Of a stretch of 64,000 nt of DNA, positions 40,543 to 60,394 are shown one piece after another (position 1 is the first letter of the stretch; every line of letters starts with the position of its first letter). The notes under the pieces were generated by a model. The model ran no database searches. It was given only the letters and a program-made list of their open reading frames with translations, and was not told the origin of the DNA. This DNA comes from Clostridiaceae bacterium BRH_c20a (GTDB taxonomy: Bacteria; Bacillota; Peptococcia; Peptococcales; BICA1-8): assembly GCA_000961765.1 (NCBI GenBank), contig LADT01000086.1, positions 62,001 through 126,000 on the forward strand, in the 5' to 3' direction. A program made the position numbers and the translations under genes.

Positions 40543-41934
40543 TTAATTTCTAAAGATAATTTTTATTGCAGGCTCATCTAAAACACAAGCATATTCACAT
40601 ATTCCGCAGCCCACACATTTATCGGGGTTTACAACCGGAAGTTGGAAATCTTCCATAAATAGAGCTTCATCTATTAGAGGACAATTCAGCCAGCATGAAC
40701 GACAAACATCACCTTGGTAAGCATAACAAAGTTCCTTATCGATTTCTGCCACACCAATTTTTACTTCTCGTATATCAAGGGGGGCTAATGCTCCTGTAGG
40801 ACAAACATCAGGACATTTCATACAGAGATAACAAGGCATTTCCCTAGGATTAAAATAAGGTGTTCCAATTCCCATACCTTGATCTCCATGGGCACTTAAT
40901 AATGTCTTATATTCACAAACCTCAATGCATTTGCCACAGCGAATGCACTTAGATAAGAATTCCAACTCTATTCCCGCACCAGGAGGCCTTAGGACAACAG
41001 GCGCCCCCTTCTTAGTCCAATTAAAGGATGTTGTTAATAACCCTGTTACAGCTAGGGCTCCACCTGCTTGAAGGAGCATCCGTCTTGAATATATAGATTC
41101 TGAGGTGGTAGCAGCCACTTCTTTAACTCTATAGGAAGTTAAAACTGGCTTTCCCCAAGAAAATTTGAGTGACCCAGTGGGACAAACATCAATACACTGA
41201 CCACATTTTGTACATAACGGCATTCTCCAGCTTTCTAGGGGTTCATTAATTAGCTGCTGCAAGGAATCTTTTGTATAGCTGCAGTTCCTCACACATTTAT
41301 TGCATTTTATACATTTATCGGCATCACACTGTACCTTGAGAACACTGAGGTGACTAATTAGTGCATATAAGGCTCCCACAGGACAGAAGATGCGACACCA
41401 GCCTCTTTTAACTCCTATGAATTCATAAATAATGATAAATACTAAAATAATAACCTCTATACCAAAACCAAACAGGATACTTCTAAAAAAAATGCCTAGT
41501 GGAGATATTGTTTGAAAAATAGGAACCCCAATTAGTAAACTTACTATTAGAAAAATTGGTAATGCCCAATAGTATTGAGTTTGTTTTTCTTTTAGGTTCT
41601 TTTGTTTACTTTTGACAACTTTATTTTTTAATTCATCTATTAACTCCACCATAAGACCAATGGGACAGGCCCAGCTACAAAAAGCTTTACCTAGTACCAT
41701 ATAAGCCGCTGTTATTAATAAAGAGCTGCTTAATAAAGTAAAGGTAACAGTTTTTGACGCTACTATTACTTCTAACAGAGCTAGCGGATCTGTCAAGGTA
41801 ATACCCAGTACTTCACTTGAAATCAGTGTTCCTATTACTACCAGACTGCCAAGAATTGGTGCCATAAAGATGAGGATAATACCGATTTGGGTTAATCGGC
41901 GATATCCCTTCCAGCTCATCTTCACCTTCGTCAT
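40543..41934 (-). CDS. NapH-NapG fusion, multi-4Fe-4S membrane quinol dehydrogenase-type protein
   Basis: N-terminal NapH-like TM (CSWACPIGL, CRIFCPVGAL), then YSRRMLLQAGGALAVTGLL Tat-like segment, then NapG-like clusters (CIRCGKCIEVC, CYLCMKCPDVCP, CVGCGICEYAC). Confidence 0.85.
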   Translation of the reverse strand: MTKVKMSWKGYRRLTQIGIILIFMAPILGSLVVIGTLISSEVLGITLTDPLALLEVIVASKTVTFTLLSSSLLITAAYMVLGKAFCSWACPIGLMVELIDELKNKVVKSKQKNLKEKQTQYYWALPIFLIVSLLIGVPIFQTISPLGIFFRSILFGFGIEVIILVFIIIYEFIGVKRGWCRIFCPVGALYALISHLSVLKVQCDADKCIKCNKCVRNCSYTKDSLQQLINEPLESWRMPLCTKCGQCIDVCPTGSLKFSWGKPVLTSYRVKEVAATTSESIYSRRMLLQAGGALAVTGLLTTSFNWTKKGAPVVLRPPGAGIELEFLSKCIRCGKCIEVCEYKTLLSAHGDQGMGIGTPYFNPREMPCYLCMKCPDVCPTGALAPLDIREVKIGVAEIDKELCYAYQGDVCRSCWLNCPLIDEALFMEDFQLPVVNPDKCVGCGICEYACVLDEPAIKIIFRN

Positions 41935-41997: not shown

Positions 41998-44262
41998 TTA
42001 AACCTTTTCAACACGAACCGCACAAATCTTAAACTCGGGTTCCTTGGAGGCAGCGTCAACTGCATCAGTTGTCACAGCATTAACCAATCTTTCTGCCTCA
42101 AACCAAGTTGCAAATATCAATCCCCGCCTGGGAATACCGGGTCGCTCAATTTTTACCGGCAGTTCTACTGTACCCCGTCTGGATACTAGGCGCACTATAT
42201 CGCCTTCCTTTATGCCCAATTGAGTGGCATCCTTGGAATTAAACTCAGCAAAGGATGTAGGTACAGCTTTCATAATTGCCGGACACTTTCCGGTCATAGT
42301 ATCGGTATGCCAATGTTCTAAAACACGTCCGGTTGTCAGGCAGAATGGATATTCTTTATCCGGCATCTCGGCCGGTTCTGTATAAGGTCTAGCAAAGACT
42401 TGGGCTCGATGGTTAGGTCTGGCATAAAAATCCACACCTTCTTTAACATATGGATCATCCGGAGCAACAAAACGCATTCCTGTACCTTCTGTCCCTATAT
42501 GATCTTTAACAGGCCATCTGATACCATGGGCTTCTTTTAAAGCGGCATAGCTGGCCAGCTCCATGTCTGTACCTGTTGTGCATTTCAGGTATTCATTCCA
42601 GACATCCTCAAAGGATTTATAGGGGAATACCTCCCCATAACCCATACGGTGCGCAAAATCTATTAGTGCGTCCACATCAGGCCGAGCTTCACCGGGTGGC
42701 TCAATAGCCTTAGCCATATGCTGAGTTCTTCTTTCGGTGTTACCATAAACACCCTCTTTTTCGCACCATAAAGCAGCAGGAAGTACAACATCAGCGTATT
42801 TACTTGTTAGAGTCGGATGATACGTCTCCGAAACTACCAAAAAGGTTTGTTCCAGACCTGGGTGATAGAAAGTAGCATTAGGTAAAGAATGGGCCGGATT
42901 TGTACACATTACCCATAAGCATTTCAGATCACCGGTAACAGTCCTGCGGAACAATTCCATAGTATGCCACCCCGGTGCCGGTGCCATTTTAGCCGGGTCT
43001 GTTCCCCAGATTTTAGCAATTTGTTCCCGGTGTGCAGCATTAGCAACCAGTCTGTGGCCAGGTAATAAGTGGGATAATCCACCTACTTCTCGGACACTAC
43101 CACAAGCACTGGGCTGTCCGGTTAAGGAAAAGGTGGTACTGCCCGGCTTACAGATTTTACCCGTAATCAGGTGCAGGTTATGAATCATATTGTTGGCAAA
43201 TACACCGGCAACCCTTTGATTAATACCCATACACCACAAGGTCATAGTATTTTTGCCCGGTTCTGCGAAATCTCTGGCTAACTTTCTTATTTCCTGCACG
43301 GGAATACTACTTTTAGCTGAGGCAAATTCCGGTGTGTAGCTTTCTTTAATATGCTGCTTATAATCCTCCCAAGTAATTGGATTAGCGCCATCGGAGAAAC
43401 AAACATGATTTTTAATAAATTCTTCATCTGTAAAGCCTTCTTCAATGATGACATAAGCCATAGCCCCCAAAATTGCTAGGTCTGTCCCCGCTATAAAAGG
43501 AATAGCACTATCAGCAATTTCATGGGACCGGTGACGTCTGGGGTCAGCAATAATGATTTTCGTACCAGGATTTTTCCTTTTGTGGTCAACAATTCTTGAG
43601 AATAAAACCGGATGGGCCTCAGCAGTATTTGAACCGATGATGAAAAAAACGTCACAGTGTTCAAAATCATCATATGTACCCATAGGTTCATCAGCACCAA
43701 AAGTAGTCATATAACCGGCTACTGCACTTGCCATACAAAGCCTAGGATTACCCTCAACGTTATTGCTGCCAAAGCAGCCCTTCCAAAGCTTGTTGGCCAC
43801 ATAGGTTTCATCGACCGAGGTCTGCCCTGAACCATAGAAACCCACTGAAGCAGGTCCATATTGGTCAAGGGATTCTTTAAACCTTTGAGTGATAAGCTCC
43901 ATTGCTTCATCCCAACTGGCTTCCACGAACTTACCATCTTTTTTAATTAAAGGTTTGGTTATACGGTCTTTAGCAGTCATTATCTGGGGCAGATAATAGC
44001 CTTTTGCACATAAAAGACCCTTATTTACCGGATTATCAGGGTCACCTTTGACTGCTACTACTTTACCGTTTTTTACACCTATCATAACTCCACAACCTGT
44101 TCCACAATAGCGACAAACGGATTTAACCCATTTATCAGCTTCGGTTTTGGTTGGGTCGATAGGTTTACTCTGCACAGGCTGTCTGCCACTTGAACATCCA
44201 GCACTTACCAGGGCAGTCGAAACAGCACATGCTTTAATGAAATCTCTCCTTGAAAATTTCAT
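41998..44262 (-). CDS. napA: Periplasmic-type nitrate reductase catalytic subunit, Tat lipoprotein signal
   Basis: MKFSRRDFIKACAVSTALVSAGC; CRYCGTGCGVMIGV; NPRLCMASAVAGY; start set at ATG 44262 (GGGAGG SD). Confidence 0.85.
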   Translation of the reverse strand: MKFSRRDFIKACAVSTALVSAGCSSGRQPVQSKPIDPTKTEADKWVKSVCRYCGTGCGVMIGVKNGKVVAVKGDPDNPVNKGLLCAKGYYLPQIMTAKDRITKPLIKKDGKFVEASWDEAMELITQRFKESLDQYGPASVGFYGSGQTSVDETYVANKLWKGCFGSNNVEGNPRLCMASAVAGYMTTFGADEPMGTYDDFEHCDVFFIIGSNTAEAHPVLFSRIVDHKRKNPGTKIIIADPRRHRSHEIADSAIPFIAGTDLAILGAMAYVIIEEGFTDEEFIKNHVCFSDGANPITWEDYKQHIKESYTPEFASAKSSIPVQEIRKLARDFAEPGKNTMTLWCMGINQRVAGVFANNMIHNLHLITGKICKPGSTTFSLTGQPSACGSVREVGGLSHLLPGHRLVANAAHREQIAKIWGTDPAKMAPAPGWHTMELFRRTVTGDLKCLWVMCTNPAHSLPNATFYHPGLEQTFLVVSETYHPTLTSKYADVVLPAALWCEKEGVYGNTERRTQHMAKAIEPPGEARPDVDALIDFAHRMGYGEVFPYKSFEDVWNEYLKCTTGTDMELASYAALKEAHGIRWPVKDHIGTEGTGMRFVAPDDPYVKEGVDFYARPNHRAQVFARPYTEPAEMPDKEYPFCLTTGRVLEHWHTDTMTGKCPAIMKAVPTSFAEFNSKDATQLGIKEGDIVRLVSRRGTVELPVKIERPGIPRRGLIFATWFEAERLVNAVTTDAVDAASKEPEFKICAVRVEKV

Positions 44263-44279
44263 TTGCAACCCTCCCAAAA

Positions 44280-44576
44280 TTAATTTAACGCATCTGTTAA
44301 AACGTGACATTGACGACAGGTAGTAAATTCAGGGTGAGGGGTTTTTGGTACTCCACCTATTTCGCCATCACGGTGGCAGACTAAACAGTCACCCCTTCCC
44401 TCTAATTCATGGGGAACTTCTGGAGGAAAGCCATCAATATCAATTAGTTTTAAATCAGTTTCTGAGATTTCCCCTTGAGGAACAGGAGGCCCACTACTAC
44501 ATGCACTAACGATGAGAGAACTAAACAAAAGCAGAATGAGAATAGTGATTATACTTTTCTTTCTCTCCTGAGTCAC
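44280..44576 (-). CDS. Diheme c-type cytochrome lipoprotein (NapB-like role)
   Basis: LIVSACSSG lipobox; CLVCH and CRQCH heme motifs. Confidence 0.8.
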   Translation of the reverse strand: MTQERKKSIITILILLLFSSLIVSACSSGPPVPQGEISETDLKLIDIDGFPPEVPHELEGRGDCLVCHRDGEIGGVPKTPHPEFTTCRQCHVLTDALN

Positions 44577-45200: not shown

Positions 45201-45434
45201 TTATGCTGTTTCGTAATGAATATAGACTGGATAGACCCCAATAACTCCCTGTAACTTTAAGATTTGTTCATCCATTATCTGTAACACACTTTCTACTGAG
45301 GGACTTTCTAAAACTAAAATTAATTGTCCTTCTAAAACCGTTTCAATAGAAAGACCTTTAATATTTGCCAAAGGCCCTCTTATTTGTTCCTCAAACCCAA
45401 CTAAGCATTTAAGAATAAGGCTGGAGATAATCAT
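45201..45434 (-). CDS. napD: NapD-type chaperone
   Basis: IISSLILKCLVGFEEQIRGPLANIKGLSIETVLEGQLILVLES; inside nap cluster. Confidence 0.8.
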   Translation of the reverse strand: MIISSLILKCLVGFEEQIRGPLANIKGLSIETVLEGQLILVLESPSVESVLQIMDEQILKLQGVIGVYPVYIHYETA

Positions 45435-45491: not shown

Positions 45492-46709
45492 TTACTTTCT
45501 AAGACTATCCAATTCATGCCCGGTTGCATTTGGGTACGTATACATCGGTAACTCAATAGCTTCTATTTGTAATTTATCCTTGACACCTGCTTCAAGATAT
45601 AATCGTTCTGCCTCACCCTTAATGGCAAGGTACTTAGCCCATAATTCTGCAAACCCATGCCAATGAGTATAGTCAGGTGAGAAGTGCTGTGCACCTTTAA
45701 TGGTGGTAGCTTCTGCATATTTATGCAACTCAAACATCAGGCTTTCGATATCACTCTCATGACTGTAACCGAAAAACTTCGCGGTTAATGGAGGAAGTCC
45801 ATCCTTGTCTAACAATGAACCTTCTGAAGGCTTAAGTACTCCATCTTTATACAAGTCCCTGATAATTGTACGGGCTGCGCCTACAATACGTAATGTTTCT
45901 TTCTTAATTGCTTCTACATTGTTTCGGGAATCTTGGACATATTCTTCACTGTGGCACTGTAGACAGTTACTCCACAGTTCATTTTTGCCGGCTTCGCCAT
46001 CTTCATTTTTCAGTTGGATAATATAATGGTTATTATCCTGCGAAGTATGACAGGTGTTACAGGTCGGCTCTCCGGTAGCTTGAGCTACTTGGAAGTGAAC
46101 ACTTGATTCATAAGCTTCACGCTGGGGATGGTCAGGACCCATATGACAATTTTCACAGCCGTTGGTGAAATTGCCTGTTACTGCTTGACCAGGAAGAGCT
46201 TGTAATACGGGCTTAGGTAGAGCAGTAGGATGTCCTTGATGACAACTGGTACAGGTTTCTTCAACTTTAGTATGACAGTCATCACACCCTTGCTGCTGCA
46301 TTTCCGGGAAAGCATCTAACAACTTAAACCGAACATTATTTTGTGAGAAGGAGACGGCTTGCACGTGTCTGGTTTTATTAAAGCCATCTAATGCTTCAGT
46401 ATGACATTCTCCACAGGTTTCCGGACTAACCTTGGCAAAATTTGCATATTTTAGGTCTTTTTCATCTATCAACTCAGTTCCGTGACAATTTATACATGTT
46501 ACTCCATTTTCCCCGTGGGCACTGGTTTTCCATATTTCATATTTTAGGGGCATTTTATCTTTATAATAACTTTCGAATTCTATTGCCTGTTGAGCGGTGG
46601 CACCCGCCGGAACAACAGTTGGTTGGCTAGACATAGCATATAAGGCTATTCCGCCGATAATAAAAACTCCAACTACTATCCATAAGACATTCTTATTTTT
46701 TAGATTCAC
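45492..46709 (-). CDS. Heptaheme cytochrome c, hydroxylamine oxidoreductase-like
   Basis: Seven CXXCH (CINCH, CGECH, CDDCH, CTSCH, CENCH, CNTCH, CLQCH) followed by a long helical C-terminus; N-terminal TM anchor. Confidence 0.7.
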   Translation of the reverse strand: MNLKNKNVLWIVVGVFIIGGIALYAMSSQPTVVPAGATAQQAIEFESYYKDKMPLKYEIWKTSAHGENGVTCINCHGTELIDEKDLKYANFAKVSPETCGECHTEALDGFNKTRHVQAVSFSQNNVRFKLLDAFPEMQQQGCDDCHTKVEETCTSCHQGHPTALPKPVLQALPGQAVTGNFTNGCENCHMGPDHPQREAYESSVHFQVAQATGEPTCNTCHTSQDNNHYIIQLKNEDGEAGKNELWSNCLQCHSEEYVQDSRNNVEAIKKETLRIVGAARTIIRDLYKDGVLKPSEGSLLDKDGLPPLTAKFFGYSHESDIESLMFELHKYAEATTIKGAQHFSPDYTHWHGFAELWAKYLAIKGEAERLYLEAGVKDKLQIEAIELPMYTYPNATGHELDSLRK

Positions 46710-47248
46710 TTAAGTTCTCCCTCCCTTTCAGTATTTTTCCCATGTCCTACAGTTTGGTGGCAGGATACACATGATGTTTGATTTGCTGCTGTTGAATGAG
46801 CAATTTGTTGAGTCTGATTTTGTGGTACTAAATTATCTAAGACATGACATTCTTCACAATTCTCATTTAGTATTTTAGCCCTGGCTCTTCGTGCTAGTTC
46901 AGGACTCATCCGTTTAAATTCGAATGGCGTAGGCTTCTCAACTAAATGCACATATAACTCGGAGAGCTTGCCTGCTTTAGTAACCAGCATCTGCAGCGTA
47001 TTCCCGGGAATGTGACAGGACTGGCAGTCAGCTGTTATGCCTAAATTATTCATACCATGGGTTGACTGCTGCCAACTACTAACCGCGGTATTCATCTCGT
47101 GACAACTCATGCAGTATTCAGTTTGGGAAGTATAATGACTTGCACCCAAGGTAAAAAATAACCCGGCAATTATTAAACAGATTGGTAAAAGCCAGCCTAC
47201 CTGTTTAATTTTCAAACTTCGCTCATCTTTAACCACCTTTGTGTCCAA
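46706..47248 (-). CDS. NapC/NirT/NrfH-like tetraheme membrane-anchored cytochrome c
   Basis: One N-terminal TM; CMSCH, CQSCH, CEECH, CVSCH; 4-bp overlap with the HAO-like gene. Confidence 0.85.
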   Translation of the reverse strand: MDTKVVKDERSLKIKQVGWLLPICLIIAGLFFTLGASHYTSQTEYCMSCHEMNTAVSSWQQSTHGMNNLGITADCQSCHIPGNTLQMLVTKAGKLSELYVHLVEKPTPFEFKRMSPELARRARAKILNENCEECHVLDNLVPQNQTQQIAHSTAANQTSCVSCHQTVGHGKNTEREGELK

Positions 47249-47351: not shown

Positions 47352-47392
47352 AAGATATGCCTTGCTACTCTAAATAGTAACAGGCATATCTT
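47352..47392 (-). terminator. Hairpin plus T-run between hemA and napC; possible hemA terminator/napC leader hairpin
   Basis: Arms AAGATATGCCT/AGGCATATCTT followed on the minus strand by TTTTTTTT. Confidence 0.65.
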
Positions 47393-47455
47393 AATAGCTA
47401 CTTAGTACGTGCTTAATAAATACTTAAATAAAACTTAATAAATTATTAACGTTTA
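47390..47455. promoter_or_regulatory. 11-bp-phased direct repeat array 1 (6 units)
   Basis: CTTAATAGCTA|CTTAGTACGTG|CTTAATAAATA|CTTAAATAAAA|CTTAATAAATT|ATTAACGTTTA. Confidence 0.75.
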
Positions 47456-47471
47456 ATCTATGAATATTTTT

Positions 47472-48749
47472 TTAGTTATTTTTCTTTTTTTCAAGGTCAA
47501 ATAACTCATGGATTACTTCAGCGTAAACTGGACCTTTTTTAACATGAGCATACTTCTTTAGATTGGTAATGGGTTGGTGTAATATTTGATTTACAATTGA
47601 ATTAGTGAGGGAAATTATGACATGTTTTTCTTTCTCGGAAAGATTTGGTAGTTTTCGTATAGCCTTAGCCAATTCCCTATCTTTTATAGCTACTGCCCTT
47701 TGTTTTAAACCCATTATAGTAGGTATCACAAATAAGGAGTCTAGCCATTTGAAAAAGATATCAATTTCTTCTATAATAATTGCTTCCGCTTTAACGGCTT
47801 CTTTTTTCCTATGATTAATGTTCTTTACAACTACATTTTGCAAGTCATCAACATCGTAAAGAGAGATATTACCTAGTTTTTGAACATCGGGGTTTATATC
47901 ACGGGGTACAGCAATATCAATAAATAATAGTGGCTTATTAGCCCTTTCTCCTAAAATAGGCAATAGATCTTCTACCTCAACAATATACTTTGGCGCAGCC
48001 GTACAACTGATTATAATATCGGCTTCTTTTATATACTTGGGGAAATCATCCAGCCGTATTGCTTCTCCACTAAATTCTTCTGCTAGTTTTTGCGCTCGTT
48101 CAAAGGTTCTATTGGCTACAATAACAGTAGATACACCATTTGCAACAAGATGTCTTGCAGTTAGTTCGCTTGTCTCTCCGGCGCCCAATATTAAGACAGT
48201 GTGGTCTGTTAGGTTACCAAATAACTGCTTAGCCAGTTCCACTGCCGCAGAACTTATAGATACTGCTTGCCGGTCTATCAATGTTTCTGTTCGTACCCTT
48301 TTACCGATAGAAATAGCATGCTGAAAAAGAGTGTTTAATACATTATTTGAAATCTGTAACTCTAAGGCATTTTCATAGGCATCCTGTACCTGTCCAAGAA
48401 TTTGAGTTTCTCCCAAAATCATCGAATCAAGACCTGCCACAACCCGGAACAAATGTTGTACCGCAGCTCGACAATCTTTAAAATAATAAAACTGTTCTAG
48501 CACATCTAGGGAACAATGACTAACTTGTGTTATAAACTCGCCTAAGGTTTTTCGCCCTAATTCTAAATTTTTGGTGGCAATATATATTTCCATTCGATTA
48601 CATGTAGACAGAACTATAGTTCCCTCTACACCCGGCAGTTTTTTTATCTGAGGAACTAGGGCTTTTATTTGGGCTTTATTTAGCGCTATTTTTTCTCTAA
48701 TCTCTACGGGCGCCGTTTTGTGATTAGCTCCCAGTAGTAGAATATACAT
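47472..48749 (-). CDS. hemA: Glutamyl-tRNA reductase
   Basis: MYILLLGANHKTAPVEIREKIAL; VLSTCNRMEIY; VAGLDSMILGETQILGQVQDAY. Confidence 0.95.
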   Translation of the reverse strand: MYILLLGANHKTAPVEIREKIALNKAQIKALVPQIKKLPGVEGTIVLSTCNRMEIYIATKNLELGRKTLGEFITQVSHCSLDVLEQFYYFKDCRAAVQHLFRVVAGLDSMILGETQILGQVQDAYENALELQISNNVLNTLFQHAISIGKRVRTETLIDRQAVSISSAAVELAKQLFGNLTDHTVLILGAGETSELTARHLVANGVSTVIVANRTFERAQKLAEEFSGEAIRLDDFPKYIKEADIIISCTAAPKYIVEVEDLLPILGERANKPLLFIDIAVPRDINPDVQKLGNISLYDVDDLQNVVVKNINHRKKEAVKAEAIIIEEIDIFFKWLDSLFVIPTIMGLKQRAVAIKDRELAKAIRKLPNLSEKEKHVIISLTNSIVNQILHQPITNLKKYAHVKKGPVYAEVIHELFDLEKKKNN

Positions 48750-48817
48750 ACCTATTCGCTCCTTAAAAGAAAGTTGGTGACTTGCACGCACCACGATAAT
48801 CAAGAGCATTCCCGTCA

Positions 48818-48890
48818 CCTTAAGATCCTTCGGTCGTTCCTCCCTCAGGAAGACACATCAATCATCAGTAGCTTTCATAACAATGACAAG
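48818..48890. repeat. Second, diverged partial copy of the 5696 repeat family
   Basis: CTTAAGATCCTTCGGTCGTTCCTCCCTCAGGAAGACACATCAATCATCAGTAGCTTTCATAACAATGACA versus 5738-5807. Confidence 0.85.
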
Positions 48891-48893
48891 CTA

Positions 48894-49739
48894 TTAGGCA
48901 TAGCTGTGCAAACCGGGGAGCAATAAATTAACTCCTGCAAAAGTAAACATTACTGCAGCGAAGCCTAAAACTACTAAGATTATGGATTTTTTGCCTCTCC
49001 AATTTTTCATTAACCTTGTATGGAGATAGCCGGCATATATAAACCAGGTAATCAAGGACCAAGTTTCCTTAGGATCCCATGACCAATAAGAGCTCCAGGC
49101 TATTTCAGCCCAGATTGCACCGGTAATAATAACCAATGTTAAAAAGGGCATACCCACTAATATAAGCCTATAAGTTAAATCCTCCAATATTTCTAATTTA
49201 GGAAGTTCAAAAAGAAAACCTCTCTGCTTCTTTAGGCCTATAGACCCTTCTTTGATAAGATATAATATCCCGATAACAAAAGATACAGCAAAGGCCCCAT
49301 AAGATATTACTGCGGTAAAAACATGAAAATACAGCCAGTTACTTCTCAATGCCGGCATTAACGGACGTAAAGTCTTATCCATAAAAATCACCCATACCAT
49401 CAAGCCTGCAACAAGGGGTAGAGCCAATACCCCAACATAAGAAACATTATATTTAGTTTCAACTATTAAATACATTAAGACAATTCCCCAGACAAAGAAG
49501 AGAAGGAATTCATACATATTGCCCAATGGAGGATACCCAGAGTGAATATAACGAATTAATAAGGTGCTTGAGTTTAAAATTAAACCTGAAGCAGTAAAAA
49601 CTGCAGCTAATTTACTTATAAATTTAGAATCTATTTTATTTCCCACTGCAGGTACTATTAGTTGGGCGGAATATAATAGTGACGCTATCAAATAAATTAC
49701 TAGAGCTGCTACCAATGTATAAAATTCTAAATTTTCCAT
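48894..49739 (-). CDS. ccsB: Cytochrome c biogenesis protein CcsB/ResC (CcsA family)
   Basis: WAEIAWSSYWSWDPKETWSLITWFIYAGYLH WWD-type motif. Confidence 0.93.
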   Translation of the reverse strand: MENLEFYTLVAALVIYLIASLLYSAQLIVPAVGNKIDSKFISKLAAVFTASGLILNSSTLLIRYIHSGYPPLGNMYEFLLFFVWGIVLMYLIVETKYNVSYVGVLALPLVAGLMVWVIFMDKTLRPLMPALRSNWLYFHVFTAVISYGAFAVSFVIGILYLIKEGSIGLKKQRGFLFELPKLEILEDLTYRLILVGMPFLTLVIITGAIWAEIAWSSYWSWDPKETWSLITWFIYAGYLHTRLMKNWRGKKSIILVVLGFAAVMFTFAGVNLLLPGLHSYA

Positions 49740-50902
49740 TATGATAGTCCTCCTATAATTTTTTCCAAATCCTTTTGGAGCTTTTCCTTATTCCATTTAT
49801 CCTTAGTATTTACAGAGTAACCAATTGCACTTTTATCATGTTCTAGTTCAATTTTTATTTCCTGATATTTGCCAAACCAGGAAAGGAAAAAACCTACCGA
49901 CATTAGCAAAAATCCCGACATAACCACAGGTAGACCGGGGTCTGTCTTAACTTTAAGAACAGAATAAGGTTTGACCTTGTGATCATTTAGAGTAAATCCA
50001 TCTATTAAAGGAATATCCTGCTCGGAGTTTAATTCAAATATTTCTTTCAAATGATTGTTTTCATACTTTTGCAAAATATACCCATCTTCACTTTGGGCAA
50101 AAACGATAACTACATTCTCGTTCAATTGAACTCCTCGGTTTGAGGGAAATTCCATAATTTCCTCAGCTGTCCCCATTTTTATCTTGACTTCATGATTGTA
50201 ACCATAAGCACTTTGATAAAACTTCATTCCTTTAAACTTAAATGGATCGTTGACTTGGGTAATACCCTCTTTTACCGGTTCGACATCTCTAAATAAAGTA
50301 AAAGCTGACCGCCAGTTGGCTATATCACCCCTATCATCAAAGATTGTTTGAAAGTCATTTAACTTAATTTGATATTCCGCGGATACTCTTTCTGGGAGGG
50401 GAACAATTTGTCCGAGATTACACTGCACGCTCTCGCTTCCCCCAAAGTTACCTATAATCGCACCAATAACAATTATTAAAATGGAAATGTGAATAATATG
50501 GGGTGCTGCTAAATCCAACTTTTTTTTAGTGGCTAATACATAAGTATATTGGGGGTCGGTTTTTTCAAATACTCTAAATTTATGATCCTTAAAATATTTC
50601 CGGATCTGTTGAATACTTTCTTCAGGCTTTTTTATATTTTTATAGTTATTTAACTTTTCCTTATTAAAGCTGCTAAACAAATCCTTTCTGGAAAACTTTT
50701 GCACAAGATGAGGCAGCCTCTTTGATGTGCAAAACAAAATATTTAAACATAGTAAGAGCAGTAACCCTCGATAACTAAAGGAGGAATAGATTAAACTACC
50801 TGGCTGGAAGGTAGCGATAATTGATAAGATGGCAATTAGGCCAATTAAGCCCAATCCCAAACCCATTGATGAAAAATACTTAAACATTAGCTTTATCCAC
50901 AT
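49739..50902 (-). CDS. resB: Cytochrome c biogenesis protein ResB/Ccs1
   Basis: FKYFSSMGLGLGLIGLIAILSIIATFQPG; HIIHISILIIVIGAIIG. Confidence 0.9.
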   Translation of the reverse strand: MWIKLMFKYFSSMGLGLGLIGLIAILSIIATFQPGSLIYSSFSYRGLLLLLCLNILFCTSKRLPHLVQKFSRKDLFSSFNKEKLNNYKNIKKPEESIQQIRKYFKDHKFRVFEKTDPQYTYVLATKKKLDLAAPHIIHISILIIVIGAIIGNFGGSESVQCNLGQIVPLPERVSAEYQIKLNDFQTIFDDRGDIANWRSAFTLFRDVEPVKEGITQVNDPFKFKGMKFYQSAYGYNHEVKIKMGTAEEIMEFPSNRGVQLNENVVIVFAQSEDGYILQKYENNHLKEIFELNSEQDIPLIDGFTLNDHKVKPYSVLKVKTDPGLPVVMSGFLLMSVGFFLSWFGKYQEIKIELEHDKSAIGYSVNTKDKWNKEKLQKDLEKIIGGLS

Positions 50903-50960
50903 CCTTTATGTCGAAATTATTTTGGATTAACTTTAAAAGCTTCGTATCTATGCTATCCAT
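50880..50960 (-). pseudogene. Probable N-terminal remnant of a siroheme decarboxylase (AhbA/B, NirD/L-like)
   Basis: MDSIDTKLLKLIQNNFDIKDVDKANV*; resembles the start of Lrp-like siroheme decarboxylases; ATG overlaps the ahbC-like stop. Confidence 0.5.
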
Positions 50961-52149
50961 TACAAACCACCTTTTCTGTTATTCCTATTTCCTCGTCAGT
51001 TAAATAACAGGCTGGGTCTTCCTGCCAGAAATCGCCAGATACTGCTTCTGCTCGAGATCGGAAATTTCCGTTACACATATCAAGCCATTTGCACTGAACA
51101 CAACGGCCTTTTAATAGCTTTTTGCGGTCTTTTAAGCCAGATAATATAGGGTGGCTTGTGTCAGTCCAGATATCGCCAAAGGATCTTTCCCGTACATTAC
51201 CAAAAGTATAATTTTGGGTGAACTGATCTGGATGCACATTACCAAACCAATCAACAGCACCAATAGCTATCCCCGTTCTGTTGCCGCCATTTATTTTTAA
51301 TAAATTAAAAGCATGCTGCGCCATGGGGTTATTTTCCTTTAATAGTTTTAAATATATATAAATTCCATCAGCATGGTTATCCACAGTAAGAATCTCTTTC
51401 TCAATTTTTTTATTTTTAAAGTATTTAACTTTTTCATATATTAGATCTAAGGCTGCCCTAGTCTCCCCATGGGTAATATCCTGGTTAACCATGGAATTAC
51501 CTCTTCCGGAATAAGCCAAATGATAGAAACAGACTCGCGGGATTCTTTCTTCTTCAATTAAATTGAAAATACTCTCCAGTTCTCGGTGATTATGTCTATT
51601 AATTGTGAAACGAAGGCCTACCTTTTGCTCTACTGCAAGGCAGTTCCTTATACCTCGTAAAGCTAAATCAAAAGCACCTTTTTTTCCACGGAATTTGTCA
51701 TTGTTCTCACCTAACCCATCTAGGCTTATCCCAACATAACCGACCCCAATTTCTTTTAGCTTTTGGGCGGTATGTTGATTTATTAGGGTCCCGTTGGTTG
51801 AAAATGTGGTGCGAATACCTTTATTAGTAGCATATTGAGCTAAGTAGAGGATGTCTTCCCTCAACAGTGGTTCTCCGCCAGAGAAAAGAATTACAGGAAC
51901 TCGAAAACGGTGAAGATCATCAATAAATTTTACCGCTTCGGTTGTTGTTAATTCATTTTCATACTTTTGAGCATCTGACCCTGCATAACAATGAATACAC
52001 TTTAGATTACATGTCTTGGTACAGTTCCACACAACTACAGGGCCCCTATTTAGTGTTGTACCACACTTAGCTCCTTGAACATCTGAGCTATATCTTAGGG
52101 AGTCGCCATAATTTTTTGTGTCAACCATTAGTTTACTAACACCTATCAA
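50953..52149 (-). CDS. Radical SAM/SPASM protein, AhbC/NirJ1-like (heme synthesis)
   Basis: VVWNCTKTCNLKCIHCYAGSD; LFSGGEPLLREDI; C-terminal CVQCKWLDMCNG. Confidence 0.75.
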   Translation of the reverse strand: MIGVSKLMVDTKNYGDSLRYSSDVQGAKCGTTLNRGPVVVWNCTKTCNLKCIHCYAGSDAQKYENELTTTEAVKFIDDLHRFRVPVILFSGGEPLLREDILYLAQYATNKGIRTTFSTNGTLINQHTAQKLKEIGVGYVGISLDGLGENNDKFRGKKGAFDLALRGIRNCLAVEQKVGLRFTINRHNHRELESIFNLIEEERIPRVCFYHLAYSGRGNSMVNQDITHGETRAALDLIYEKVKYFKNKKIEKEILTVDNHADGIYIYLKLLKENNPMAQHAFNLLKINGGNRTGIAIGAVDWFGNVHPDQFTQNYTFGNVRERSFGDIWTDTSHPILSGLKDRKKLLKGRCVQCKWLDMCNGNFRSRAEAVSGDFWQEDPACYLTDEEIGITEKVVCNG

Positions 52150-52194
52150 TGCACTTCCTCCTAACGTTTGTCATTTAAATATCCCAATAAAATA

Positions 52195-52227
52195 ATATAG
52201 CCGCTATTATAATAATAGCGGCTATAT
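52195..52227 (-). terminator. Near-perfect hairpin in the leader of the ahbC-like gene
   Basis: Arms ATATAGCCGCTATTAT/ATAATAGCGGCTATAT. Confidence 0.55.
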
Positions 52228-52293
52228 CTTAATACACACTTAGTTAATACTAAATAAATTATTAAACAATTATTAATAATTTATTAAATTTTT
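52228..52293. promoter_or_regulatory. 11-bp-phased direct repeat array 2 (6 units)
   Basis: CTTAATACACA|CTTAGTTAATA|CTAAATAAATT|ATTAAACAATT|ATTAATAATTT|ATTAAATTTTT. Confidence 0.75.
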
Positions 52294-52341
52294 CCAGCTA
52301 ATATTGATAATTAAAACTTTAAGCTTTGCTTTTTGACAATA

Positions 52342-52367
52342 AAATACAGGCACTGCTGCCTGTATTT
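52342..52367 (-). terminator. Terminator of the two-component operon
   Basis: AAATACAGGCA-CTGC-TGCCTGTATTT. Confidence 0.7.
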
Positions 52368-52436
52368 AAGAGGAGGTGTATGAAAAAGGGGCATTTGATA
52401 ATAAAAATCCTGCTTTTATTATAATAGCGCACATAT

Positions 52437-52491
52437 CTTAACCAATACTTATGAAATATTTAATAATTTATTAAATATTTGTTACAAATCA
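52437..52491. promoter_or_regulatory. 11-bp-phased direct repeat array 3 (5 weaker units), overlapping response regulator stop
   Basis: CTTAACCAATA|CTTATGAAATA|TTTAATAATTT|ATTAAATATTT|GTTACAAATCA. Confidence 0.6.
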
Positions 52492-53190
52492 CATATTACA
52501 AAATTTATACCCTACTCCCCATACAGTTTGCAAGTATTTCGGCTTAGCCGGATCCTTTTCTATCTTTTCTCTGATTCTCCTCACAAACACGGTAATTGTT
52601 CCAGTATCACCGATAAGGTCCTCATCCCACAGTTGATTATACAATTGCTCCCTAGTAAAAACCTGACCTGGGTTTCTCACCAGGAAGCAAAGTAAATCAA
52701 ATTCTTTAGGGGTAAAATTAATAATTTTCCCCTGCAGCTTTACCTCGTAATTTGCACAGTTTATTTCTAAACCTCCCATACATAAGTACCAATCTTTTTT
52801 TTCACATTTGTTGAGAGGCCTGTTTACTACCCGCCTTATTAAGGCTTTAACCCTTAGTGATAATTCAATAGGGCTAAAAGGTTTAGTTAAGTAATCATCG
52901 GCTCCCATGTTGAAACCTACACTTTTATCGACTATATCACTCTTGGCAGATAACATAATAATTGGAACATTACTACTTTGCCTAATAGTTTTACACACTT
53001 CAAAACCATCAATTTCCGGAAGCATAACGTCAAGAATAATTAAGGCAGGATCTTCATTACTGAAAACATCAAGTGCCCTTTCCCCATTAGCAGCATAAAG
53101 AAAATTATAACCTTCTTTTATCAAAATTTGCTGTACTATTTTCTTAATACCTTCTTCATCATCCACTAGCAAAATCTTTAAAGGTTTACC
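52489..53190 (-). CDS. OmpR/PhoB-family response regulator
   Basis: MGKPLKILLVDDEEGIKK; winged-helix C-terminus FTREQLYNQLWDEDLIGDTGTITVFVRRIREKIE. Confidence 0.95.
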   Translation of the reverse strand, partial: GKPLKILLVDDEEGIKKIVQQILIKEGYNFLYAANGERALDVFSNEDPALIILDVMLPEIDGFEVCKTIRQSSNVPIIMLSAKSDIVDKSVGFNMGADDYLTKPFSPIELSLRVKALIRRVVNRPLNKCEKKDWYLCMGGLEINCANYEVKLQGKIINFTPKEFDLLCFLVRNPGQVFTREQLYNQLWDEDLIGDTGTITVFVRRIREKIEKDPAKPKYLQTVWGVGYKFCNM

Positions 53191-54883
53191 CATTTCTCCC
53201 ACCACCATTTTTTATTTTGGGCAATTCAGGAATACCCACTTTAAATACACTGCCTCTGTCGATCCTGCTTTCTACCGTAATCCACCCACCATGCATCTCT
53301 ACCAATTCTTTTGCTAAAGCAAGCCCCAATCCAGTTCCACTGTATTTTCTCGAATTTGAACTGTCTGATTGGGTAAAGCGTTCAAAAATTATTTTTTGTT
53401 CATCCTCCCGAATGCCAATACCTGTATCGCTGATGGTAATAATTACTTCTTTATCATTCTTTTCATAAGCTACAGAAATTATAATCCTGCCGCCCTTATC
53501 AGTAAATTTGACGGCATTACTCGCTAAATTTTCTACTACCCTGCGTATTTTTTCCGGATCTGCTTTAATCAGAGGAACATCCGGTAAAAAACATGTATGA
53601 AATATAATTCCCTTTTGCTTAGCAAGTGGCAAAATAACTCCTTCGACCGAACCAATGACATCAGTCAAATCTACAGTATCTATTTTAATTTCATTTCTTC
53701 CAGCCTCAATTTTTGCCAGATCTAAGATATTATTTATTAGTCTTAATAAATTTTCACTATTCTTTCTTATTTCCTCCAAGTTTTGTATTTCTATTGTTCT
53801 TTCTTCGGGCATATCTGTTAATAGCAGCTCTGTAAAAGCCATTATTGAGGTTAGGGGGGTCCGAAGTTCGTGACTCATTATAGCTAGAAACTCAGATTTA
53901 TAACGGTTAGCCTCTTTTAATTGGAAGTTGACATTTTCTAATTCCTGCTGTTTATTTTTTAATACTTCATTGGCCTTTTCTAATTCATATGTGCGCTTAT
54001 CAACTTTTAATTCTAAATTGTAATATAAGTCCCGCAGCTGGCTAGCCATAACCTGAAAGTGGGTGGCTAACTGCTCAATTTCCCCTTCTGCTCTAATATT
54101 AGTAAAATCAACATTAAGATTGCCTGCACCTACTTGCCCCATAGCCTTTTCAAGATCGCTTAGTGGCTGCACAACTAACCGGTTAACCAATATGTAGATG
54201 CTGCCAATACTTGCTCCAATTAAAAGCAGAAAAAACCCTGAGTATCTAAGAACATTAGCTGATAAATTTGCCACAAAAAGGTCCATGGGCATAATCAAGC
54301 TTATTGCACCTCCAAGGCTACCTTCCAGATAACCTTCTTTGGGATAGCCAGCAACATCTAGTTCTCCTACTGGGCCCCCATGACAAGGAAGACAAGATTC
54401 TTCAACTTTTAATGGTATTATATATCTAAAAACCCTCTTATCATCTATCTCACTTTCAGCCCAATATTCCTGGAGATTGGGATTTGCTTTAAACTTTTGT
54501 AATACTTCAATCTCAAAATCATCCGGTGCATTTTGCATATCCCGGTATATAAGGCGAGTTTGCTTGATACTATAATTGGTCATTTCAGCAAAAATTTTAC
54601 TTATACCCATACCAACAGCCGCAGGATTAAGATGTTTAAACTCAAAGCCCCCTTGGGAATCACAATTGATTTTGTTTTGATTTTGGGCTATAAATTCTCT
54701 AGTGGCAATCAATTCCTTAGTTATAACCTGGGCCTTCTCCCTCATCTCCATCATAGCCTGACGCTTTTGCTGGTTAATATCCCACATAAAATTTATCGAA
54801 ACAATTAATATCATAACAACTGTAATCGCCCACATAAACCTATACGTTAAGCTTCTAACCAAGGAGAAACCCCCATTTAACAT
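53186..54883 (-). CDS. Sensor histidine kinase with DUF3365/Tll0287-like CXXCH sensor domain and HAMP
   Basis: VEESCLPCHGGPVGELDVAGYPKEGYLEGSLGGAISL; FLAIMSHELRTPLTSI; HATPase. Confidence 0.9.
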   Translation of the reverse strand: MLNGGFSLVRSLTYRFMWAITVVMILIVSINFMWDINQQKRQAMMEMREKAQVITKELIATREFIAQNQNKINCDSQGGFEFKHLNPAAVGMGISKIFAEMTNYSIKQTRLIYRDMQNAPDDFEIEVLQKFKANPNLQEYWAESEIDDKRVFRYIIPLKVEESCLPCHGGPVGELDVAGYPKEGYLEGSLGGAISLIMPMDLFVANLSANVLRYSGFFLLLIGASIGSIYILVNRLVVQPLSDLEKAMGQVGAGNLNVDFTNIRAEGEIEQLATHFQVMASQLRDLYYNLELKVDKRTYELEKANEVLKNKQQELENVNFQLKEANRYKSEFLAIMSHELRTPLTSIMAFTELLLTDMPEERTIEIQNLEEIRKNSENLLRLINNILDLAKIEAGRNEIKIDTVDLTDVIGSVEGVILPLAKQKGIIFHTCFLPDVPLIKADPEKIRRVVENLASNAVKFTDKGGRIIISVAYEKNDKEVIITISDTGIGIREDEQKIIFERFTQSDSSNSRKYSGTGLGLALAKELVEMHGGWITVESRIDRGSVFKVGIPELPKIKNGGGRNG

Positions 54884-56878: not shown

Positions 56879-57079
56879 TTAATATATTAAAAAAGGAAAA
56901 TGCATTTTCAGACAGGATACCGGGCATTCAATTTCACAACAACCACAATACCAGCATTCCTCATATTGCAAATAAGGTTTATTATCTTCTCCCATCCGCA
57001 GGCAATTCAATGGACATAAATCTACACAAATTCCACAACCTATACACTCATCTGATACCTCTATTATATAAGAGCTCAT
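56879..57079 (-). CDS. Two-cluster 4Fe-4S ferredoxin (AprB-like)
   Basis: CIGCGICVDLCPLNC...CWYCGCCEIECPVSCL. Confidence 0.85.
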   Translation of the reverse strand: MSSYIIEVSDECIGCGICVDLCPLNCLRMGEDNKPYLQYEECWYCGCCEIECPVSCLKMHFPFLIY

Positions 57080-58752
57080 TCGCCATCACCCCTTTGAATT
57101 TCCCTTAGATAAATATCAGTTTCGGGGTAGGTTTGACCAACTTGTAAATCGATATGCTTTAACCAATTAACATCATCAGTATCCGGGTAATCACTCCGCC
57201 TGTGAATACATCCCCATCTGCTCTCTTTTCTTGTTAAAGAAGAAATTGCAGACATCTGAGCACAATCAAGTATATATCCTATTTCTAATACCTTACTAAG
57301 TTCATGAAAATTTTTTGCCAATACTTGATAAGGCAACTGTTCACGCAATTCATAAATTAAACTTAAGCCTTTTTTCAAGGAAGACGAATTTTTGGGTGAA
57401 AGTAAGTATTCGTTTATTATTCTTCGCAACTTATATTCAAAGGTCGTGGGTTGAATAGTATTATTTTTAGTTAAATTGAGCAGGCTGCCAAGGTGGCTAA
57501 GCTCAGCATCAAACTCCCAATGGATGTCTTTATGATTTTCGGGGAAATTTCCATTATTACAGTACTCTATAGCACTTTCTCCTGCTATTTTCCCATAAAC
57601 AAAGGCTCCTGTTAAGTGCTGCATGGGTACTGAGCTGACATCACCTGCTGCAAAAAGACCTTTAATATTTGTATGTGATTGTTCATTTATTACTATTCCT
57701 GATATACCGTGTCCACCACACAGTTGGGCTTCAGTAAGATTAAGCTCAATGAGATCACGTCCAAATTTAATGTCTTTTAATTCCCAGTATCTGCGCTGCA
57801 TAGGTCTTTCTGTACTAAATAAAATATTCTCAATTTCCATAATTTTTTCTTTAGATAGATGATCAGTTTTTAAAAACAAAGGCCCTTTTCTATTTTCTAA
57901 TGCTTCGACAATTAAAAAAATTGATAAGTTATTTTTATCAACGATTACCTCACCACTACCATTAACTACCTCTCCGCCTCTGGTAAGGACAATATAAATC
58001 AAAGGTATGTTTAAATCCTTAACAAGGGCATATTTTAGAGTAAATTCCATGCCTGTGATTTTTGCTCCTGCTCTATAGGCTAGAGCAAAACCATCCCCTG
58101 CATTACCAGGAAAATCAAAGGTGCCATATAAATAACCGGTATTTGGCAATCCAAATCTTGATGCTGAACCATTAGCGAGAATAACACATTTGGCCTTACA
58201 ACAAACGACTTGGCCATTATTAATATTTAAGCCAACCGCACCTAGAATTTTACCATTTTTTACAATTAACTTGGTTCCCATTGTTTTGTTCAGAACATCT
58301 ATCTTGGCTTCTCTAATTTTCTTTTCCATAATTGGTTTTAAATCCGGTTCATCCATTCCCACACAAAACTTCCCACTGGTATCAACTTGCATAATATTAT
58401 AATTACCGTCTTCATTTTTTGGAAAGAATACACCCCAGCTTTCCAGCGTTTTTAGAAGTTCAAAACTTTTAATCGCTAGAGTATAATTTGGAAAATAGTC
58501 CATTATACCCCAGCACTTTTTCTTCACCGTTTCCAGATATTCTTCGGGTGTTGAAATACCAGGAATCACAGCAACATTGAGCGCATCCATACCCATGGTT
58601 ACAGAGCCACTTCTCTTAATATGTCCTTTTTCCATTATACAGACATTCAAATTAGGAGCAGCGTCTTTAATACAAATAGCAGCCATCGAACCGGCACAAC
58701 CGCCTCCGATGATCAATACATCTGTATTAATTATTACTTGCTGTAGTTTCAA
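57076..58752 (-). CDS. FAD-dependent oxidoreductase, AprA/fumarate reductase flavoprotein family
   Basis: VLIIGGGCAGSMAAICIKD; IKGLFAAGDVSSVPMQHLTGAFVYGKIAGESA; ESRWGCIHRRSDYP. Confidence 0.85.
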   Translation of the reverse strand: MKLQQVIINTDVLIIGGGCAGSMAAICIKDAAPNLNVCIMEKGHIKRSGSVTMGMDALNVAVIPGISTPEEYLETVKKKCWGIMDYFPNYTLAIKSFELLKTLESWGVFFPKNEDGNYNIMQVDTSGKFCVGMDEPDLKPIMEKKIREAKIDVLNKTMGTKLIVKNGKILGAVGLNINNGQVVCCKAKCVILANGSASRFGLPNTGYLYGTFDFPGNAGDGFALAYRAGAKITGMEFTLKYALVKDLNIPLIYIVLTRGGEVVNGSGEVIVDKNNLSIFLIVEALENRKGPLFLKTDHLSKEKIMEIENILFSTERPMQRRYWELKDIKFGRDLIELNLTEAQLCGGHGISGIVINEQSHTNIKGLFAAGDVSSVPMQHLTGAFVYGKIAGESAIEYCNNGNFPENHKDIHWEFDAELSHLGSLLNLTKNNTIQPTTFEYKLRRIINEYLLSPKNSSSLKKGLSLIYELREQLPYQVLAKNFHELSKVLEIGYILDCAQMSAISSLTRKESRWGCIHRRSDYPDTDDVNWLKHIDLQVGQTYPETDIYLREIQRGDGE

Positions 58753-59547
58753 CTAGACCGCCCCTTTCCCCATTGAACGGTAATTTGTTGGTGTAATGCC
58801 TTCAAGCTTTTTAAAGGTATTGGAAAAATGATGAATATTAGTAAAGCCAACTTCCTCTGCAATAATTTTCAATGGTTTTTTTTGTTGATTTATTAGAAGA
58901 AATTTTGCTTTTTCAATTCTAGCTTCAAGAATAAAATTACTTAAAGCTACACCTGTAGTAGATTTAAATAAGCGACTTAAATAGCTGGTATTTATATGAA
59001 CTAGGGAAGCTAATATTTCTAATGTAAGGTCCTTTTCTAAATTATCCATGATATAGTTAACAATCTTGGAAATACGATTATCTTTAAATAGCTCATCATT
59101 CTTTTTATATTCTAATGTGTCTTCATTTAAGTCAAATAGTTTTGCCCTTTGATTAACCTGCAGCGGTTTTACTTTTAATCTAATATGTCTTTTAACCTTT
59201 TCAATTGCACTTATTAATTCTTTCTCCTCAACAGGTTTTAATAAATAATCAAAAACTCTATTTTTAATTGCTTGCTGTGAATATTCAAATAACCCAAAAG
59301 CGGTTAAAATTATTATTTCCACCTGTGGGTTATCCCTTTTAATACATTCTGTAGCTTTTAGACCATCTAATATTCCCATACGAATATCCATAGTGATAAT
59401 ATTAGGCTGTAAAGCTTGATTTAACTCTACCGCCTGCAGGCCATTGGAAGCTTCCCCCACTACTTCTATTCCTAAATCATTACTTTTAAAAAAATGTTTA
59501 AGGGCTTCTCTTTCAATTATTTCATCATCAACAATCAAAAGCTTCAT
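58753..59547 (-). CDS. YesN/AraC-type response regulator
   Basis: LLIVDDEIIEREALKHFF; AraC HTH HINTSYLSRLFKSTTGVALSNFILEARIEKAKFLL. Confidence 0.93.
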   Translation of the reverse strand: MKLLIVDDEIIEREALKHFFKSNDLGIEVVGEASNGLQAVELNQALQPNIITMDIRMGILDGLKATECIKRDNPQVEIIILTAFGLFEYSQQAIKNRVFDYLLKPVEEKELISAIEKVKRHIRLKVKPLQVNQRAKLFDLNEDTLEYKKNDELFKDNRISKIVNYIMDNLEKDLTLEILASLVHINTSYLSRLFKSTTGVALSNFILEARIEKAKFLLINQQKKPLKIIAEEVGFTNIHHFSNTFKKLEGITPTNYRSMGKGAV

Positions 59548-59558
59548 AATTAATCACC

Positions 59559-60272
59559 CTATTTATTAAACCAGAATGAGGGAATAAATTTATCTTCCCC
59601 ATCAGATTTAAATGGTAAAATAATTGTAACCTCTGTACCAACTTTAAATTGGGATATAATGTTCAACTCAAAGTTATCTCCATAATAAAAGTGGAGTCGC
59701 TTTTTTATATTTTTTATTCCTGTTCCCATCGAAGCAGATTTTTCAGCATAATGTTTTAAGCTATTATTTTCAACTTCAATTCCTATTCCATCATCAATAA
59801 CCTTCAGAACTACATTATTATCCTCTAGCCTGCCGTAAATAGTAATAGCCCCGCCACCTTTAGGTTCTAATCCATGTTTTATCGCATTATCAACTAAAGG
59901 CTGCAAGGCTAATGTGGGAACTAGACAGCTTAATATATTTTGAGAAATGTCCAGCTTGTATTTTAACTGTTCTCCATAGCGGCTTTGTTGGATGAAGAGG
60001 TAGTTTTTGGTATACTGTACTTCATCCCGAAGTCTGACTAATTCCTTCTTTTCCATAGCATAGCGCAAGAGTTTTGATAGAGCATAAACAACTTCCAAGG
60101 ATTCCTGGCTTTTACCTAAGTAAATCAGACGGGCAACTAAATTTAAGGTATTAAAGAGGAAATGGGGTTTGATTTGGTTTTCTAGGCTTTTAATTTCTGT
60201 CTGCGCTAATAAAAATTCCAGATTTTCAATTTTTTCTTGAAGTCTTTCTATTTCAGTTCCTCTTGTCTGCAT
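59559..60272 (-). CDS. YesM/LytS-type sensor kinase lacking TM/sensor domain
   Basis: LENQIKPHFLFNTLNLVARLI; LQPLVDNAIKHGLEPKGGGAITI; start set to ATG 60272. Confidence 0.88.
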   Translation of the reverse strand: MQTRGTEIERLQEKIENLEFLLAQTEIKSLENQIKPHFLFNTLNLVARLIYLGKSQESLEVVYALSKLLRYAMEKKELVRLRDEVQYTKNYLFIQQSRYGEQLKYKLDISQNILSCLVPTLALQPLVDNAIKHGLEPKGGGAITIYGRLEDNNVVLKVIDDGIGIEVENNSLKHYAEKSASMGTGIKNIKKRLHFYYGDNFELNIISQFKVGTEVTIILPFKSDGEDKFIPSFWFNK

Positions 60273-60358
60273 AGTACACCGTCCTAATGCTACTGTGCTA
60301 AAAAGCACATATTATTTTATTCTATAAACAATAAAGAAATCCTTTATTGTTAGTAACA

Positions 60359-60384
60359 GGCCCTGCAGATTAATCTGCAGGGCC
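60359..60384 (-). terminator. Terminator of dctP-like gene
   Basis: GGCCCTGCAGAT-TA-ATCTGCAGGGCC. Confidence 0.6.
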
Positions 60385-60394
60385 CTGCTTAGTA

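Follow-up and report, generated by a model that had tools for sequence, protein, structure and literature searches.

Gene organization of the locus

We analyzed a 64,000-nucleotide stretch of the Clostridiaceae bacterium BRH_c20a genome (contig LADT01000086.1, positions 62,001 to 126,000), referred to here as the window, in which three arrays of 11-bp direct repeats (A1, A2, and A3) lie among nap, HAO-like, and cytochrome c assembly genes. The arrays are given in minus-strand orientation, in which all surrounding genes also run. In the order of that strand, the genes and arrays are as follows.

53186..54883, minus strand: sensor histidine kinase with Tll0287-like (sCache_heme, CLPCH), HAMP, HisKA, and HATPase domains
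52489..53208, minus strand: OmpR/PhoB-family response regulator (REC and Trans_reg_C), the proposed array-binding protein
52431..52485, minus strand: array A3, five units, beginning 4 bp past the regulator stop codon
52222..52287, minus strand: array A2, six units, preceding nirJ1/ahbC-like, resB, ccsA, and hemA
50953..52149, minus strand: NirJ1 (AhbC-like) radical SAM protein, first gene under A2 (TIGR04054, above cut-off)
49739..50902, minus strand: ResB-like cytochrome c maturation protein (PF05140)
48894..49739, minus strand: CcsA-like cytochrome c assembly protein (PF01578)
47472..48818, minus strand: HemA glutamyl-tRNA reductase, the gene directly preceding A1 (TIGR01035)
47384..47449, minus strand: array A1, six direct-repeat units of 11 bp (TTAA[G/T]N6) ahead of the napC/HAO-like/nap operon
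46706..47248, minus strand: NapC/NrfH-type tetrahaem cytochrome, first gene under A1 (PF03264; four CxxCH)
45492..46709, minus strand: HAO-like multihaem cytochrome (seven CxxCH; matches HAO structures)
45201..45434, minus strand: NapD-like 77-aa ORF, assigned by position, with NapD at the equivalent place in relatives L181 and L183
44630..45241, minus strand: NapG-like ferredoxin (domain search)
44280..44576, minus strand: small dihaem (NapB-like) protein (two CxxCH; no Pfam match)
41998..44310, minus strand: NapA-like molybdoenzyme (best NCBIfam model NapA, below cut-off)
40543..41934, minus strand: fused NapH- and NapG-like ferredoxin (domain/NCBIfam search)

The NapD-like ORF sits between the HAO-like gene and napG and falls under the usual ORF length filter. 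The HAO family is marked by eight haems; the window's HAO-like cytochrome and four relatives contain seven CxxCH motifs, and HAO structures still match. Such seven-motif cytochromes occur in Firmicutes (the window, L130, and L181-L183), with Nap genes adjoining in most of these loci. A second two-component cluster neighbors the locus (57076-61459), encoding an FAD-dependent fumarate-reductase-like protein and an AraC-type response regulator, together with ORFs resembling that regulator's kinase and a TRAP-type solute-binding protein.

Sequence and significance of the tandem arrays

Read on the minus strand from 47449 to 47384, A1 consists of six exact 11-bp units, TTAATAATTTA TTAAGTTTTAT TTAAGTATTTA TTAAGCACGTA CTAAGTAGCTA TTAAGATATGC, each conforming to TTAA[G/T]-N6. 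The first-pass annotation had described six tandem 11-bp units at 47390-47455 upstream of the nap/HAO operon; the sequence matches its quotation and the repeats are exactly 11 bp, but their proper register and orientation are those given here. Its related arrays near 52228 and 52437 are likewise present and more sharply bounded than it stated (A2, 52287-52222; A3, 52485-52431), and the gene that they adjoin does encode an OmpR/PhoB-type regulator, with REC and Trans_reg_C domains. An independent repeat search aligned A1, A2, and A3 as a single 90-nt family. PhoB operators are 11-bp direct repeats with seven conserved and four variable positions (PMC2648988; PMC4415409), and head-to-tail direct repeats at 11-bp spacing, one criterion for an OmpR/PhoB-type operator, are what A1-A3 present.

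The arrays are AT-rich (79-88%). The annotation had named periodicity no greater than that of shuffled sequence as evidence against an operator; the 11-bp autocorrelation exceeded dinucleotide-preserving shuffles in all three arrays (p=0.0002 for A1, 0.0014 for A2, and 0.0002 for A3, hence p<=0.0014 throughout), as did scores from a unit matrix derived for each array from the remaining two (p<0.0002, <0.0002, and 0.0004, respectively). Four-unit scores of >=20 occurred at 8 overlapping positions in the window versus 0 in five shuffled windows. The genome scan that had been proposed for a four-unit pattern with 11-bp spacing was run with a −10 element added; across 4.5 Mb, A1 and A3 were the only exact matches, and A2 was among three matches with one mismatch, of which one of the other two is followed by an ABC-transporter ATPase ORF and the second by a PAP2 phosphatase gene. 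A plain two-unit pattern was dropped as a genome-wide query because its matches were too common.

A fourth candidate site in the genome (L171, approximately 4770-4827, minus strand; G000 C24:31773-31826) has four units and AATAAT at 15 bp. The ORF that follows it encodes an apparently short ABC-transporter ATPase of 114 aa.

Fixed spacing between the arrays and the predicted −10 elements

Each array is followed by a predicted −10 element.

52421..52426, minus strand: predicted −10 of the A3 promoter, TATTAT, with only an approximately 70-nt non-coding stretch ending in a hairpin downstream
52212..52217, minus strand: predicted −10 of the A2 promoter, TATTAT, within a hairpin at 52190-52228
47374..47379, minus strand: predicted −10 for the nap operon, TACTAT, preceded by TG with one base between, 15 bp from the start of the last A1 unit

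In A1, A2, and A3 alike, the last unit is TTAAGATAT plus two variable bases, followed by a 4-bp spacer and the −10, so that the hexamer starts exactly 15 bp from the start of the last unit. Because summed array and −10 scores over spacings were dominated by the array term, we used a co-occurrence test instead, under a strict rule that demanded an array unit with >=2 further units in phase and a −10 of the form TAnnnT matching TATAAT at 4/6 positions. A spacing of 15 was found in 14 of 17 promoters (A1-A3 and those of relatives), against a mean of 2.1 per spacing and a maximum of 10 at any spacing when −10 positions were randomly shifted (2000 trials). Secondary peaks at 12, 23, and 26 comprised 8-11 promoters each; the peak at 26 corresponds to a position one repeat farther away from the −10, and that at 12 may arise from the TA-rich last unit and −10.

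Columns outside site selection were also conserved. Among 20 aligned sites, unit position 9 was T in 20/20 and position 6 was A in 19/20, and an extended −10 (TGnTAnnnT) was common (G of TGn in 18/20, its T in 16/20), with several relatives' sites having been put in register by eye beforehand and orthologous promoters not being independent. The last unit was one base out of register in some dms-type promoters. No −35 was seen at the array promoters; judged from sequence, an operator abutting the −10 in place of a −35 is the geometry of PhoB/OmpR-type activation.

A predicted promoter within a terminator-like hairpin

The A1 promoter overlaps a further element.

47352..47392, minus strand: terminator-like hairpin and U-tract of hemA (fold z about −6), whose 5′ arm holds the last A1 unit and the −10

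Strong hairpins from the last unit onward were found at A1, A2, L116a, L117, L118, L182, and L183_2 (z −4.2 to −6.9), that is, at seven promoters (of nap, hem, and ccs genes) in six genomes, with the −10 in the apex, a U-tract in several, and differing stem sequences. The upstream gene was co-directional in every one of these cases, and therefore we interpret the hairpin as the terminator of that gene, into which the promoter has been set; none of the 10 divergent-gene promoters that were folded was as strong (z −2.1 or weaker). Read-through RNA from the upstream gene would fold and stop at the hairpin, whereas RNA begun at the regulated promoter would be without the 5′ arm and hence would not stop there. 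The hairpin would thereby insulate the promoter from upstream read-through.

The regulator and its predicted haem-c sensor kinase

Both regulator domains scored above cut-off (PF00072, 100.9 bits; PF00486, 98.1 bits), and its recognition helix is TITVFVRRIREKIE. Against the PhoB equivalog model TIGR02154 it scored 194.6 bits, below the cut-off of 296.2, and no ResD/ResE model appeared among the best 25 NCBIfam matches. The genome encodes at least seven other OmpR-type regulators, up to 48-49% identical.

The Tll0287 domain of the kinase scored above its cut-off (PF11845, 104.4 bits versus 24.1), with CLPCH at residue 164. Tll0287 domains fused to signalling modules are described as haem-c Cache domains with NO-sensor properties in the available text of a preprint (PMC12889525). 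Given this extracytoplasmic haem-c Cache sensor and the nitrate/HAO-type targets, the likely cue is NO or the redox state.

Recurrence in other Firmicutes

Orthologous kinase-regulator pairs were identified in Desulfitobacterium, Desulfosporosinus, Gracilibacter, and other Firmicutes, where the same array and −10 layout precedes nap, ccs/res, HAO-like, and DMSO-reductase-type operons beside the orthologous regulators. Pairs whose kinases are 53-63% identical adjoin array-bearing nap or DMSO-reductase-type operons (L010-L013, L115-L118, and L120), and more distant pairs (kinases 46-56% identical) adjoin HAO-like genes with arrays (L130, L181, and L183). Eight units lie directly behind the regulator ahead of nap in L116 and ahead of resB-ccsA in L117; L118 likewise has an array ahead of nap. 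Arrays precede DMSO-reductase-type operons in L010-L013, L115, L116b, L117b, L120, L125, and L126, the enzyme class of three coming from a separate search. Four units precede the HAO-like gene of L130, and napC-HAO-nap operons follow arrays in L181, L182, and L183, the array of L182 standing at its nap/HAO operon on a short contig that carries no kinase. The contig of L127 has kinase, regulator, and nap genes and no array.

The two arrays of L183 (4780-4872 and 8932-9023) are identical at 90 of 93 bases over a stretch that takes in the regulator gene's 3′ end, and these near-identical copies indicate that a promoter behind the regulator gave rise to a second one ahead of the nap/HAO operon. 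Among 60 near relatives, a kinase search at E<=1e-80 matched only in one distant genome (G048), and searches of relatives from the same genus and family did not recover the HAO-like gene; the island is therefore patchy.

Which protein reads the arrays

The arrays are, very likely, multi-site operators for an OmpR/PhoB-family regulator, most likely the one at 52489-53208, which would bind head-to-tail and help sigma-A polymerase open a −10 promoter, driving the nap and haem/cytochrome operons, with NO or redox as the likely cue. The motif by itself does not name the binding protein, because a four-unit score of >=12 is also reached at 9 of 28 AT-rich control loci, which surround different regulators of the OmpR type. 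The TTAA/11-bp style is thus general for the regulator class, and the link to the adjacent regulator rests on synteny, conservation, and phase; score-only specificity was dropped in favor of position and −10 phase. The recognition helices support this link: array-linked regulators mostly carry T[IV]TVF[IVM]R[RK], versus mostly [GST]IAVF[IV]RK (e.g., TGIAVFIRK) in paralogous regulators without arrays (L122-L124 and L128). From synteny and conservation, we infer a protein-DNA link between the regulator and the arrays.

That some high-scoring control arrays stand ahead of pst-like genes, and that 11-bp geometry and a TTAA core are common to both, raises the alternative that A1-A3 are Pho boxes for the cell's PhoP/PhoB-type phosphate regulator rather than targets of the adjacent one. 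We consider this improbable and rejected it on the genome's own pst operon, which bears TTAACA-type repeats on its coding strand as against TTAAG/TTAAT in the arrays. Moreover, no phosphate gene is found under A1-A3, the arrays accompany the regulator and its haem-Cache kinase from genus to genus, and the adjacent regulator falls below NCBIfam PhoB cut-offs. The 79-88% AT content would suit an up-element or low-complexity tract that engages no specific protein, such tracts being common upstream of promoters; the excess of periodicity and unit scores over dinucleotide-preserving shuffles, the fixed phase to the −10, and the conservation between genera leave that account hardly any likelihood.

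The position of A1, between the hemA stop codon and a strong terminator hairpin (z about −6), invites a third account in which the repeats act as RNA: 11-nt repeats could serve as an RNA-protein landing strip, and a protein bound to the repeats near the 3′ end of hemA RNA would control the hemA-napC terminator by attenuation or antitermination. This account was rejected as very improbable, since the dms-type loci L011, L012, L116b, L117b, and L120 carry their arrays between divergent genes, where no upstream transcript crosses the array in that direction; those folded there lack a strong hairpin, and the conserved distance to the −10 matters only for DNA. PhoB/OmpR-type operators within a self-contained regulon of the 52489-53208 regulator, as the first-pass annotation had proposed, thus form the best-supported reading of these sequences, with arrays and fixed −10 spacing recurring beside orthologous regulators. 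That annotation did not mention the placement of the −10 elements, the overlap with terminators, the kinase with its haem-c sensor domain, or the genes for haem synthesis and cytochrome c maturation that follow A2.

A3 and a possible small RNA

A3 lies just behind the regulator and has no obvious gene to drive. The approximately 70-nt stretch below it (52335-52407, minus strand) may be a non-coding RNA with a terminator hairpin at its end; it contains CCCCUUUUU and CACCUCCUC and C-rich anti-Shine-Dalgarno-like stretches. Rfam gave nothing above gathering score in the A2-A3 region, this candidate included, and the stretch was not conserved in 13 other genomes, so a small RNA driven by A3 is speculative. 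ResD also drives a small RNA, RoxS (PMC4409812).

Proposed mechanism and relation to known systems

We propose that phosphorylated regulator molecules bind the 11-bp units head-to-tail on one face of the helix. Since the last unit occupies the usual −35 position, the regulator would assist sigma-A polymerase in opening the (often extended) −10 promoter, acting as an activator rather than a repressor, with transcription predicted to start downstream of that −10. A1 would drive napC-HAO-napD-napG-napB-napA-napH, and A2 would drive nirJ1-resB-ccsA-hemA, supplying haem and c-type cytochrome assembly. The partner kinase would read its signal, likely NO or redox during nitrate respiration, through the extracytoplasmic haem-c Cache domain. 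The arrays are thus very probably switchable promoters used by the neighboring two-component regulator for nitrate-respiration and cytochrome-making genes, and a self-contained anaerobic-respiration regulon is the best reading of the locus.

With PhoB/PhoP Pho boxes (E. coli CTGTCAT-N4; Gram-positive TTAACA-type), the arrays share 11-bp direct repeats suited to head-to-tail OmpR-family binding, a core that is conserved beside positions that vary, and placement just ahead of a −10 that lacks a −35. They differ in their TTAA[G/T]A core, their 5-8 units, and their respiratory and cytochrome targets, and the regulator lies outside the PhoB families. A functional parallel in the control of nitrate respiration and cytochromes is offered by ResDE of B. 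subtilis and SrrAB of S. aureus, an OmpR-family system that links NO and low oxygen to those genes (PMC4409812); here, in contrast, sensing is assigned to a haem-c Cache domain of the kinase, the operator is a clean tandem array, and the targets include Nap, the HAO-like cytochrome, and dms-type enzymes.

The kinase resembles sCache_heme (Tll0287/DUF3365) sensor kinases in combining a Tll0287 domain bearing CxxCH with HAMP and HisKA. NO binding is reported for a signalling member of that family in the available text of PMC12889525, which names no regulator, operator, or targets; a regulon is proposed here. The Nap operon of Desulfitobacterium hafniense DCB-2, NapDFBAG in the accessible part of PMC3306737, where its regulation is not described, is related, and the operon here adds NapC and the HAO-like cytochrome; in apparently Desulfitobacterium-like genomes (L116 and L118) an array lies between regulator and nap. 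No prior description of the operator was found in the literature searched, which lay outside subscription journals. This would be a known kind of bacterial switch serving a regulon that itself appears undescribed.

A fuller picture can be advanced tentatively, and we hold it to be rather doubtful as a whole: a conserved composite in which an activator-dependent extended −10 promoter inside an upstream terminator is used by an NO-sensing haem-c kinase and its regulator to induce nitrate reductase together with an ammonifying HAO-like cytochrome and haem/cytochrome-c assembly, and in which a small non-coding RNA may be transcribed from A3, much as RoxS is under ResD.

For haem-c Cache kinases, whose target genes are not named in the available text of PMC12889525, the locus would provide a testable operator, promoter, and signal, and the promoter inside a terminator would represent a simple insulation design. 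With the motif and its 15-bp rule, the regulon may be recognizable directly in genome sequences. The locus would also link nitrate/HAO-type ammonification by anaerobic Firmicutes to the supply of haem and cytochrome c.
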